Positions 50,254-56,747 of a stretch of DNA of 64,000 bases are shown in pieces. The position numbers and the translations under genes were made by a program. Position 1 is the first letter of the stretch. The number at the start of each line of letters is the position of its first letter. The notes under the pieces are model-generated. The model saw only the letters and a list, made by a program, of their open reading frames with translations. It was not told the DNA's origin and ran no database searches. Source of the stretch: Actinomycetospora straminea (GTDB taxonomy: Bacteria; Actinomycetota; Actinomycetes; Mycobacteriales; Pseudonocardiaceae); contig NZ_JAQZAN010000029.1 of NCBI RefSeq assembly GCF_028737255.1, forward strand, positions 1-64,000, written 5' to 3'.

Positions 50254-51322
50254 GAGCTATACACAAGATCGCGTCGAGATCGACGCCGTCGCGACGCGCC
50301 TAAGGCGCGCGCCCTGGCCCGGGTAGATCGGGGCCGCTCAGGCCGCCCAGACCGCTCGGGCCCCCGCCCAGGCCGCTTCGACCCCCGCGCCGGCCACTCG
50401 ACGGTCGCAGGTCCGGCCGCCTCGCGCCGCGCACGACCGCCGGTGAGTGGACGACACTCCCTCGCGCTACGCCTTTTGCTGACTCCGAGCACGTGCCCCG
50501 GCAGCGGCACAGCGGCGACCTATGTCCAAGATCGCGTCGAGTCCGCCCTGCGGTGGCGTCGACATCGACTCCGTCGCGACGCGTCGGGTTGGCCGCTCGG
50601 GCCGCTCCGTCGTTCAGCGGATCGGGGTCCGACCGCTCGGAGAGTTCCGGGTGCAGCCTTCTCACTCCCTCCCACGGCCGTTGCTGGGTCGACGACACCC
50701 CCTCGCGCCGGCCCACCTCACCCCGAGCACCGTGCCCGGCAGCGACATCGCGGCGAGCTATGCCCAAGATCGCGTCGAGTCCGCCTCGCGTGGCGTCGAT
50801 CTCCGATGCGCCCGACTCGGCACACCGGCCCCTGCGACTGATCGACCCGCGCGCCGCCTCCTCGTGCGCGACCTCCTCGTGCGCGGGCTGCCGTTGGCGA
50901 CGTCCTCGTGCGCGACCTCCTCACGCACGTCTCCTCGCCCCCGACACGCCCTACCGGTCGGTCTCTGCAGGTTGTTCCACGCGCACCGTGTCGCCGCAGA
51001 CCGCGGGCGCCCGCGTTCGGTCTGGGCCACCGGCCGGCAGCTCGTCGGGCGCGGATCGGGCACACCGTTCTCGACGCGATCTTGGGCGTAGCTCATGCCG
51101 CGCCCACATCGGTCGGCGCCCCGCGACTGCCGCCGTGGCACCGTCACCGGCAGCTGGCTGCTCGCTCGTGTCCAGCTCGAGACCGTCGTTCTCGACGCGA
51201 TCTTGCGCATAGCTCACGCCCCACCCCACGTCGGTCGGCGGCCTTGGCGCCGTCGCGAAGGTCAACCGCGCGCCCGTCCCCGCTCGGGACCGTCGCTCTC
51301 GACGCGATCTTGCGCATAGCTC
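50254..51322. repeat. Six copies of a 25-bp element in a 1.2-kb non-coding region, three direct and three inverted
   Basis: The space 50180-51394 holds no convincing gene. It contains a 25-bp element with the invariant core AAGATCGCGTCGAG preceded by GAGCTATGC or a close form. Plus-strand copies: 50254-50278, 50517-50541, 50755-50779. Minus-strand copies: 51070-51094, 51191-51215, 51298-51322. Start-to-start distances are 263, 238, 315, 121 and 107 bp. Some flanks are shared: a GTGCCCCGGCAGCG-like stretch before copies 2 and 3, and CATCGGTCGGCG-like stretches behind copies 4 and 5. Irregular spacing and unequal flanks exclude a CRISPR. The two halves face each other, so opposing copies could pair in RNA or mark protein binding. 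Confidence 0.85.
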
Positions 51323-51394
51323 GATGAGGAGTGGTGGCCGACCGGCGGGCAGGCCCGACGGAACCGGCGCCGAGCCGGCGGCGTCGAACCCCGT

Positions 51395-54532: not shown

Positions 54533-54620
54533 GGGGCCAGCCTGCCGCCGGGGAGGTCCGCCGTCTTGGACGGATCGGAGCCCGCGCCACGGGATCGGCG
54601 ACTGTGGTGTTCTCCCCGAC

Positions 54621-55184
54621 GTGGCCGACGACGAGCAGCTGCGCGCCGCGCTGGTCGAGGACCTCGACGCGGGGTTCGAGGCGGTGGTGCGCACCCACGG
54701 CGACGTCGTGCACGCGGTCGCCCGGCGCACGGCCGAGCGGGCCGCCGACGCGGAGGACCTCGCCGCCGAGGCGTTCCTGCGGGCCTACCGGGCGCTGCGG
54801 GGCTACGACCACGACCGCATCGCGCGGCTCGACCTGCGGCCCTGGCTCCTGACGATCCTGCTCAACACCGCCCGCAACGACCGCCGTGACGCCGCCCGCC
54901 GACCCCGCACCGACGGCGCCGCCGACCCGCCCGACCGCGCCAGCCCCGCCCCCGGCCCGGCCGAGCGGGCGGAGACCACCGATCTCGGCGACCGGCTCGC
55001 CGCCCTGCTTGCGACGCTGCCGGTCGCCCAGCGCACCGCGGTGGTGCTGCGCCACGTCGTCGACCTGCCCGTCGCCGAGGTGGCCGCGGTGCTCGCGTGC
55101 AGCGAGGGCACCGCCCGCTCGCACGCGGCCCGCGGGCTCGCCGCCCTGCGCACACGCCTGACCAGTACGGAGGACACGTCATGA
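54621..55184 (+). CDS. ECF-type RNA polymerase sigma factor
   Basis: The 187-residue protein has sigma region 2 ('[49 protein letters not shown]' to '[22 protein letters not shown]') and region 4 ('[52 protein letters not shown]') joined by an acidic Pro-rich linker. No classical anti-sigma factor gene is next to it. The stop overlaps the start of the alkyltransferase/Ada fusion gene (ATGA at 55181), so the partners are made together. The promoter was not identified. Confidence 0.9.
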
Positions 55185-55921
55185 CCGACCCGGTGCTCGC
55201 GGCGCTCCGCGACCTCGCCGAGCCCGCCCCCACCAGCCTCGCCGAGCGCGTCGTGGACGGCTGGCTGCGCGTCCCCGGCCCGCTCGGCGAGGTGTACGCC
55301 GTCGTCGGCGACCGCGGTGTGCGGCTGCTGCGCCCGGCGGCGTTCGCCGGCGAGCTCGACGCGTTCCTCGAGGACTACCGAACCCGCCACGGCCGACCGG
55401 TCCGCCCGGCGCCGCGCGCACCCCGCGGCCTGTTGCCGGCGCTGCGGGGACGCGGCGAGGGCCCGGCCCTCGACCTCGGGGACCTCACGCCCTTCGCCCG
55501 CGAGGTCCTCGCCGTCACCGCCCGCATCCCGGTCGGGCAGACGCGGCCCTACGGCTGGGTCGCTCGCGAGGCCGGGCGCCCGAAGGCGGTGCGGGCCGTC
55601 GGCACGGTGCTGGCGCGCAACCCGGTGCCGCTGCTCGTGCCCTGCCACCGGGTGGTGCGCGGGGACGGCGACCTCGGGCAGTACCTCTCGGGGCGGGCGG
55701 ACAAGGTGGCGCTGCTCGAGCGCGAGGGCGTGGAGGTCGCGCACCTCGAGGCGCTCGCGGCCGCGGGCACGCGGCTGGTCGGCAGTGACACCACCGGCGT
55801 CGTCTGCTTCCCGACGTGCCACCACGCCCGCCGGATCACCGCCGCCCATCGGCACGGCTTCCCGAGCCTCGAGCGCGCCCGTGACGCGGGTTACCGCCCC
55901 TGCCGGGACTGCCGGCCTTGA
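55181..55921 (+). CDS. Alkylguanine-DNA alkyltransferase fused to a C-terminal Ada metal-binding domain
   Basis: The 246-residue protein has an alkyltransferase core: 'PFAREVLAVTARIPVGQTRPYGWVAREAGRPKAVRAVGTVLARNPVPLLVPCHRVVRGDGDLGQYLSGRADKVALLEREG', with acceptor Cys155 in PCHRV. The C-terminus ('GTRLVGSDTTGVVCFPTCHHARRITAAHRHGFPSLERARDAGYRPCRDC') is an Ada-type zinc domain with Cys209, Cys213, Cys241 and Cys244. In E. coli Ada this domain precedes the alkyltransferase and senses methyl phosphotriesters; here the order is reversed, without the AraC HTH. The ATG 55181 overlaps the ECF sigma stop. It may repair DNA and report damage to the sigma factor (inference). Confidence 0.9.
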   Translation: MTDPVLAALRDLAEPAPTSLAERVVDGWLRVPGPLGEVYAVVGDRGVRLLRPAAFAGELDAFLEDYRTRHGRPVRPAPRAPRGLLPALRGRGEGPALDLGDLTPFAREVLAVTARIPVGQTRPYGWVAREAGRPKAVRAVGTVLARNPVPLLVPCHRVVRGDGDLGQYLSGRADKVALLEREGVEVAHLEALAAAGTRLVGSDTTGVVCFPTCHHARRITAAHRHGFPSLERARDAGYRPCRDCRP

Positions 55922-55925
55922 CCGC

Positions 55926-56747
55926 TCAGCGCGCCGTGAACCCCGCGTCCACGGGGAGCGCGACGCCGGTGACGTAACGGGCGCCGTCGGAGACCAGCCA
56001 GTCGACGGCGGCCGTCACGTCGGCGGGGTCGAGGAGCCCGACCGGCAGCAGGTTGCCGACGTCGGGCACCTCGCCGTCGGCGGGCGCGTCGAAGAGCGCC
56101 GCGACCGCGTCGTTGAGCACCATCGTCGTCGCGACGCCCGACGGGTGCACGGCGTTGACGCGGATGGCGTGCGGGGCGAGCCAGTGCGCCCACGCCCGGA
56201 CGAGCCCGGTGAGCGCGGACTTGCTCGCGACGTAGCCGTCGCTGCCGCCCGATCCGTCGCCGCCGCGCCCGGTGAGGCCCACCGACGACCCGGTGACCAC
56301 GACGGCCCCGCCCCGCCCCTGCTCGATCATGGTCGGGACGGCCGCCTGCACGGTGTTCCAGACGCCGACGGTGTTGACCTCGAGCTGGTCGCGGAACGCC
56401 TGCGCGGCCGGCACGTCCGGCGACGCCATCCCGATCCCGGCGTTGGCGAGCACGATGTCGACCCCGCCCAGCTCAGCGATCCCCGCCGCCACCGCCGCGT
56501 CGAGGGCCTCGCCGTCCCGGACGTCGGCGACGTGTGCGCTGACCCGCGCGCCGCGCTCGCGGACGCCGGCTACGGTCGCGTCCAGGTCGTCGGTGGTCGC
56601 CAGCGGGTAGGCGACGCTCGCGATGGGCGCGCAGACGTCGATCGCGACGACGTCGGCCCCCTGCTCGGCGAGGCGCCACGCGTGGCTGCGGCCCTGTCCG
56701 CGGCCCGCGCCGGTGACCACGGCGACCCGCCCGGTGTGCTCGGCCAT
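55926..56747 (-). CDS. Mycofactocin-coupled SDR family oxidoreductase
   Basis: A 273-residue SDR with 'VAVVTGAGRGQGRSHAWRLAEQGADVVAIDVCAPIASVAYPLATTDDLDATVAGVRERGARVSAHVADVRD'. The insert after strand 2 ('VCAPIASVAYPLAT') and 'ATTMVLNDAVAALF' mark the mycofactocin-coupled subfamily (TIGR03971), whose members keep NAD bound and pass electrons to mycofactocin. Catalytic 'VVTGSSVGLTG...YVASKSALTG' is present. No mycofactocin synthesis genes lie in the window. Confidence 0.9.
   Translation of the reverse strand: MAEHTGRVAVVTGAGRGQGRSHAWRLAEQGADVVAIDVCAPIASVAYPLATTDDLDATVAGVRERGARVSAHVADVRDGEALDAAVAAGIAELGGVDIVLANAGIGMASPDVPAAQAFRDQLEVNTVGVWNTVQAAVPTMIEQGRGGAVVVTGSSVGLTGRGGDGSGGSDGYVASKSALTGLVRAWAHWLAPHAIRVNAVHPSGVATTMVLNDAVAALFDAPADGEVPDVGNLLPVGLLDPADVTAAVDWLVSDGARYVTGVALPVDAGFTAR

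Follow-up and report, generated by a model that had tools for sequence, protein, structure and literature searches.

The sigma-alkyltransferase pair in the window

The window, a 64,000-nucleotide stretch of an Actinomycetospora genome, carries an ECF sigma factor gene (54621..55184, plus strand; GTG start, 187 aa) followed immediately by a gene for an alkyltransferase with a C-terminal Ada zinc domain (55181..55921, plus strand; 246 aa). The two open reading frames overlap by 4 bp, with ATGA forming the end of the first and the start of the second. The sigma factor matches Sigma70_r2 (6.1e-13) and Sigma70_r4_2 (2.5e-13) in Pfam, scores above the cut-off for TIGR02937 in NCBIfam, and has regions sigma2 and sigma4 only, which places it among the ECF sigma factors. 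In an alignment of 27 sequences it keeps DAED and has the recognition helix SHAARG. The pair is flanked on the 5' side by a divergent Glyoxalase-family gene (start 54532, minus strand) and on the 3' side by a convergent short-chain dehydrogenase gene (55926-56747, minus strand), and no anti-sigma gene adjoins it.

The partner combines the two repair modules known from Ada, but their order is reversed and no HTH lies with them. Its O6-alkylguanine transferase domain (55490..55732, plus strand; residues 104-184; DNA_binding_1, PF01035, 2e-28) contains Cys155 (codon 55643-55645, plus strand) in the motif PCHRV, and the top PDB match of the partner profile is E. coli C-Ada (1sfe, E 2.6e-28). The Ada-type Cys4 zinc domain (55760..55918, plus strand; residues 194-246; Ada_Zn_binding, PF02805, 2.5e-9) matches N-Ada (1adn, 5.7e-9). 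Its Cys209, 213, 241 and 244 align with Cys38, 42, 69 and 72 of E. coli N-Ada, numbers that derive from chain positions in the 1adn alignment, so that the partner shares all four zinc cysteines with Ada, including the one at the methyl-acceptor position (Cys209 = Cys38). An AlphaFold model of the partner (mean pLDDT 83.6) matched both folds, the zinc fold weakly by E-value (0.15) and with probability 1.00. In E. coli Ada, however, the order is zinc domain, AraC-type HTH, transferase; here the transferase comes before the zinc domain and a separate sigma factor recognises the promoter. Pfam lists no third family for the partner at E-values up to 1, in a search whose HMMER filters remove most weak matches, and so gives no sign of an AraC HTH or of a known anti-sigma domain. 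A sequence-only reading of this DNA had described the overlapping pair, the PCHRV cysteine, the Cys4 site, the reversal relative to E. coli Ada and the lack of a visible anti-sigma gene, and all of these are confirmed by the open reading frames, Pfam, the N-Ada alignment and the identity of the neighbours.

Residues 1-27 of the partner (55181..55261, plus strand) form an N-terminal extension that is a candidate element for contact with the sigma factor. A helix at residues 4-12 is modelled there with low confidence. Many of the listed matches to unpaired Ogt proteins begin near profile position 28, but 15 of the 27 paired matches from the phylum likewise begin only at profile position 16 or later. 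Judged from these alignments, conservation of the extension is weak beyond the family.

Conservation of the pair and of its cysteines

The association of the two genes is widely conserved. A scan of GTDB species genomes for the partner gave 29 loci, comprising 26 full-length relatives and 3 loci that match only in the transferase; a sigma homologue lies directly upstream of all 26 full-length relatives, and many of these show the same gene overlap. The pair was found in Actinomycetospora, Pseudonocardia, Kutzneria, Solihabitans, Sphaerisporangium and a Rubrobacter MAG. A search of 297 family genomes, the window's own among them, yielded 51 partner matches above 200 bits in 48 genomes, and the sigma gene is directly upstream of 49 (profile-match gap of at most 174 nt). 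The exceptions are G139, in which an inserted gene separates the partner from a sigma gene about 1.6 kb away, and G017, in which the pair is degraded. Among 396 genomes of the phylum there were 28 partner matches at E <=1e-45; one is the window's own, and the remaining 27 all have the sigma gene upstream, with a gap of at most 160 nt. The three samples share species, so their counts are not additive, and they cover strong matches, with weaker ones, including ordinary Ogt, outside their scope. The adjacency and gene order on which the earlier reading had built its candidate switch are nearly universal among the relatives found, and conservation across genomes excludes a chance adjacency.

Other genes for the repair of alkylated DNA often accompany the pair. 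Of 67 loci (some species counted twice), 24 encode an Oxygenase-NA protein (PF09859) and 23 an AlkB-type oxygenase (PF13532) in the neighbourhood; both often adjoin the pair, and canonical Ogt is also present in several loci. No anti-sigma gene was noticed among the recurrent neighbours, part of which were annotated. In five loci (L013, L072, L075, L076, L103) a short protein of about 100-150 aa is encoded between the pair and an alkB-type gene, and in L194 it lies behind the predicted promoter and is followed by ogt; two copies of this short protein were scanned and had no Pfam match. One Actinomycetospora genome (G243) has four sigma-alkyltransferase pairs (L079, L080, L081 and L104), of which one has the zinc domain and three do not.

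The cysteines of the partner differ in how strictly they are kept. The 93 paired partners reduce to 86 distinct sequences, all of which have Cys155. Cys209, 213 and 241 are each present in 79 and Cys244 in 78, and the complete zinc Cys4 site is found in 78. Seven partners (L079-L085) end before the zinc domain and have none of its four cysteines although the sigma gene is kept; one further loss of a zinc cysteine belongs to the degraded pair. The earlier reading had proposed an Ada-like switch involving the zinc domain. The repair-linked pair at the heart of that proposal is conserved, but the zinc domain is not obligatory: its absence from 7 of 86 distinct paired partners rules it out as a necessary switch, and it is thus not the sole one. 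We consider it at least as likely that the signal would pass through Cys155, as reported for Caulobacter Cada2 (PMC10957082).

The pair is not a simple replacement for Ada-type proteins. Strong Ada-type zinc matches, counted as zinc matches whatever the domain make-up of the protein, were found in 266 of the 297 family genomes. Within Actinomycetospora, 17 of 18 genomes have none, and G243 is the only member of the genus with such matches. Outside the genus, however, such a strong match is also present in 29 of the 30 family genomes that bear the pair, and the idea that the pair cleanly substitutes for Ada is rejected as a general rule.

Predicted promoter and regulon

Footprinting upstream of the sigma genes predicts a sigma promoter of the form GCAAC/GCCAC-N15-GGTGTTC, typically 8 nt before the start codon. 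In the window, the -35 element GCCAC (54586..54590, plus strand) and the -10 element GGTGTTC (54606..54612, plus strand) precede the GTG start by 8 nt (pattern match G000:C21:54586-54623), and a near-leaderless transcript is predicted. Upstream of the sigma gene, GCAAC-N-G[GT]GTT occurs in 39 of 58 regions, in every case with a spacer of 15 or 16; 200 base shuffles gave 0.19 on average and never more than 3. Of the 19 regions without this motif, the nine from Actinomycetospora relatives (L001-L009) carry G[CA][CA]AC-N15-GGTGTTC at the same place, with GCCAC or GAAAC as the -35; the window promoter (54586-54612) fits this form. In six others Oxygenase-NA precedes the sigma gene, which leaves four of the 58 regions (L021, L025, L026, L081) with neither motif nor Oxygenase-NA. 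A stricter form of the motif was found at 61 of 86 loci, partly because it does not allow a 14-nt spacer. Most distant members of the phylum have TGAAAC or TGCAAC with GTGTT or GGGTT. One search pattern, GMMACN{15,16}TGGTGTTC, was discarded because its spacing was wrong and it missed true sites.

At 48 of 82 sigma-group sites and 24 of 28 regulon-group sites, 8 nt separate the -10 from the start codon, and transcripts are therefore expected to be leaderless or nearly so. The -35 tracks the recognition helix of the sigma factor: SHA[AK]RG goes with GCCAC or GAAAC, and SH[VI]SRG goes with GCAAC. Within 50 nt upstream of the -35 no conserved box was found, and only a T at -1 stands out, among 82 sigma-group sites from which chance sites were not filtered out. 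No Ada-like upstream operator was thus found, and the idea that the GCAA of the -35 is an Ada B-box was set aside because the sequence varies with the recognition helix. Control is thus more likely to be exerted on the sigma factor than through an activator site.

In Actinomycetospora the promoter pattern marks repair genes. A scan of the 18 genomes found it at 24 places, whereas the reversed pattern, run as a control, had no match. The sigma gene follows at 11 of these places, ogt at 2 and Oxygenase-NA at 2, while the other 9 precede none of them; a pattern match alone is not proof of regulon membership. The window's genome has two matches, before the pair and before the Oxygenase-NA gene, each with an 8-nt gap; this count depends on the pattern, and a looser one might find more. 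Oxygenase-NA has 19 matches in 17 of the 18 genomes. The promoter precedes 14 of them, and the other 5 lie inside sigma operons. In front of stand-alone Oxygenase-NA genes it is 8 nt before the start in 12 of 12 cases, two of which (L259 and L270) have a reading frame that looks interrupted; in L266 and L267 it is further upstream. Between promoter and Oxygenase-NA, L267 (G189:C11) has a small Ada-zinc-like open reading frame, of which no intact copy is present in L266, and further small Ada-zinc matches were seen in G000, G210, G235 and G243. In seven Actinomycetospora genomes ogt is preceded by the promoter, again 8 nt before the start. The five genomes that combine a zinc-bearing pair with an SHVSRG sigma factor have GCAAC at Oxygenase-NA; the other stand-alone genes have GCCAC. 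A separate pattern scan gave 48 sites (49 rows), which we assign to 17 sigma genes, 7 ogt, 2 Oxygenase-NA, 3 amidase genes, 3 hydrolase operons, 2 ATP-grasp operons, 1 short unknown gene and 13 other places. The reversed-pattern control gave 1 match in that scan and scattered matches in one further scan.

The strongest evidence tying the motif to the sigma factor is, in our judgment, a comparison of genomes outside the genus. In the 450 nt upstream of Oxygenase-NA, the core motif is present in 15 of 25 pair-bearing genomes and in 0 of 44 pair-less genomes (Fisher p 6e-9, uncorrected for phylogeny); a broader pattern gave 15 of 25 and 1 of 44. The sample comprised 44 of 71 pair-less matches and the 26 pair-bearing genomes minus G048, where the gene is cut by a contig end, and the other 10 of the 25 are without the motif over these 450 nt. 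Both the derivation and the testing of the regulon stayed within a single family. These genomic patterns indicate that the sigma factor very probably runs an alkylation-repair regulon. In some actinobacteria this conserved pair seems to activate genes that repair methylated DNA, and it may itself be turned on by the methyl damage.

In four family genomes (G019, G220, G236, G251) the motif also occurs in or beside clusters encoding an SznF protein, an enzyme of the N-nitrosating type. The Kutzneria SznF copy matches PDB SznF 6m9r at E 4e-235. The sigma pair is present in each of these four genomes, which together contain six SznF copies 73-100% identical to the Kutzneria copy; a further five, weaker copies are at 31-40%, two of them in the pair-bearing G167 and G219. 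The motif is 7-8 nt before an amidase open reading frame in G019, G220 and G236. In G220 and G236 it also stands some 90 nt ahead of an alpha/beta-hydrolase - ATP-grasp operon, for which G251 has a similar site, and ahead of an ATP-grasp - MFS operon. In G019 the sigma promoter lies about 1.4 kb from sznF and points away from the cluster. A gene for a PRMT-like methyltransferase, which we take to be of the SznE type, adjoins SznF. The stretches that combine SznF clusters with the motif are L273 (G220:C19:664000-682000), L274 (G236:C5:191000-209000), L275 (G019:C4:940000-952000) and L276 (G220:C11:410000-422000), and Oxygenase-NA and ogt-like genes were seen inside L273 and L274. The window's genome gave no match to SznF. 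Streptozotocin methylates DNA (PMC9570651). If the sites in the SznF clusters are real, a damage-sensing sigma factor would be tied both to the making of a DNA-methylating natural product and to self-protection against it.

A possible methyl-sensing switch and its relation to known systems

We think it fairly probable that the pair serves as an adaptive response to DNA alkylation, with an ECF sigma factor standing in for the part of Ada that binds DNA. The earlier reading had suggested that the HTH is replaced in trans by the sigma factor, and this suggestion is partly supported: the predicted promoter marks Oxygenase-NA, ogt and the pair itself, and the unit looks like an adaptive response. 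Strong comparative evidence suggests that the sigma factor would recognise GMMAC-N15-GGKGTTC and transcribe its own operon, Oxygenase-NA, ogt and, where operonic, alkB. A sigma factor that activates its own operon has to be held in check, and no neighbour other than the partner is constant. Since the sigma factor is the likeliest control point and the alkyltransferase its constant companion, we propose an anti-sigma-like partner, one that would sense methyl transfer and restrain the sigma factor. In the undamaged cell, the co-translated, unmethylated alkyltransferase would bind the sigma factor and keep it inactive. Irreversible transfer of a methyl group from O6-alkylguanine to Cys155 would then change the partner and free the sigma factor; where the zinc domain exists, Cys209 may also be methylated, from phosphotriesters. 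Induction of the operon would supply fresh unmethylated partner, which would shut the response off once no lesion is left, and the partner would in this way count methyl groups. A broader proposal combines gating of an ECF sigma factor by irreversible methyl transfer onto a suicide repair partner with a second role, in which the same sigma factor, in producers of nitroso compounds of the streptozotocin type, drives SznF-cluster operons, senses the methylation caused by the cell's own product and adjusts repair and cluster together. We advance it tentatively, as conceivable and somewhat short of probable.

Other arrangements of the same parts have to be weighed against a restraining partner. 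The methylated partner could be a co-activator that recruits or stabilises the sigma holoenzyme, perhaps touching DNA through its zinc domain. In both E. coli Ada and Caulobacter Cada2, methylation of a cysteine switches on an activator (PMC10957082), and the -35 core GCAA equals the B-box sequence given there. However, no conserved element was found over the 50 nt preceding the -35 in either the sigma or the regulon promoters, the GCAA core gives way to GCCAC or GAAAC in other clades as the recognition helix changes, and Pfam revealed no HTH in the partner, which together make a co-activator unlikely. The partner might instead be just an enzyme in a sigma-autoregulated operon, with the sigma factor controlled by a low basal level, proteolysis or another regulator, perhaps an Ada-type one. 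Co-transcription by itself would hold the genes together, alkB, ogt and Oxygenase-NA adjoin the pair as well, and Ada-type zinc matches coexist with it in nearly all pair-bearing family genomes outside Actinomycetospora. We nevertheless regard a purely enzymatic partner as rather improbable: the other repair genes come, go and shift position whereas the partner follows the sigma gene in nearly all cases, a lone positively autoregulated sigma factor would be without a brake, and the 17 Actinomycetospora genomes that have no strong Ada-type match do not fit control by such a protein. That the two genes are adjacent without any regulatory meaning is scarcely credible. Nothing was found in its favour beyond shared ancestry within each family, and it is opposed by conservation from Actinomycetospora to the Rubrobacter MAG and in all 27 other phylum matches, by the coherence of promoter and regulon, and by the contrast between pair-bearing and pair-less genomes at Oxygenase-NA.

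The adjacency of the two genes is not new. The ECF group that the pair resembles, ECF122, is said to have its original source in Casas-Pastor et al. The part of the review PMC8999054 that covers ECF122 describes a group without an anti-sigma factor, of uncharacterised mechanism, whose conserved neighbour is a 6-O-methylguanine DNA methyltransferase. The pair resembles this group in having an ECF sigma factor, no adjoining anti-sigma gene and a methyltransferase neighbour, the two neighbourhood features by which that part of PMC8999054 defines ECF122, and judged by gene neighbourhood it looks like a member. In contrast to what is described here, the same account of ECF122 names no zinc domain, promoter, regulon or model. 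In a literature search mainly of openly accessible papers, the association was named in PMC8999054 only, and no promoter, regulon, mechanism, zinc-domain analysis or link to SznF was seen; a term search of the text of PMC10849742 was without a match. The promoter, the regulon and the link to streptozotocin-type clusters thus appear to be new.

Ada is the textbook example of a repair enzyme that acts as its own damage sensor. In B. subtilis, AdaA holds the zinc domain and HTH together. AdaA and AdaB resemble the pair in splitting regulation and repair over two genes; here, in contrast, zinc domain and transferase are together and the sigma factor is the second gene. Caulobacter Cada2, like the partner, is an adaptive-response protein with an alkyltransferase domain, and PMC10957082 reports methylation of its PCHR cysteine as an experimentally shown switch that works without a zinc domain. 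Unlike the partner, in which no HTH was found and whose promoter shows sigma elements only, Cada2 brings DNA-binding domains of its own and shows an interaction with subunit A of RNA polymerase (PMC10957082). Several lineages of Actinomycetota seem to have arrived at the same self-sensing logic by way of an ECF sigma factor acting in trans, and the promoter, the regulon and two candidate cysteines make the mechanism directly testable.

Elsewhere in the window, at 50262-51330, there are about six copies of a 25-nt element that is close to GAGCTATGCGCAAGATCGCGTCGAG, three per strand, one of which was seen only as a 19-nt match.
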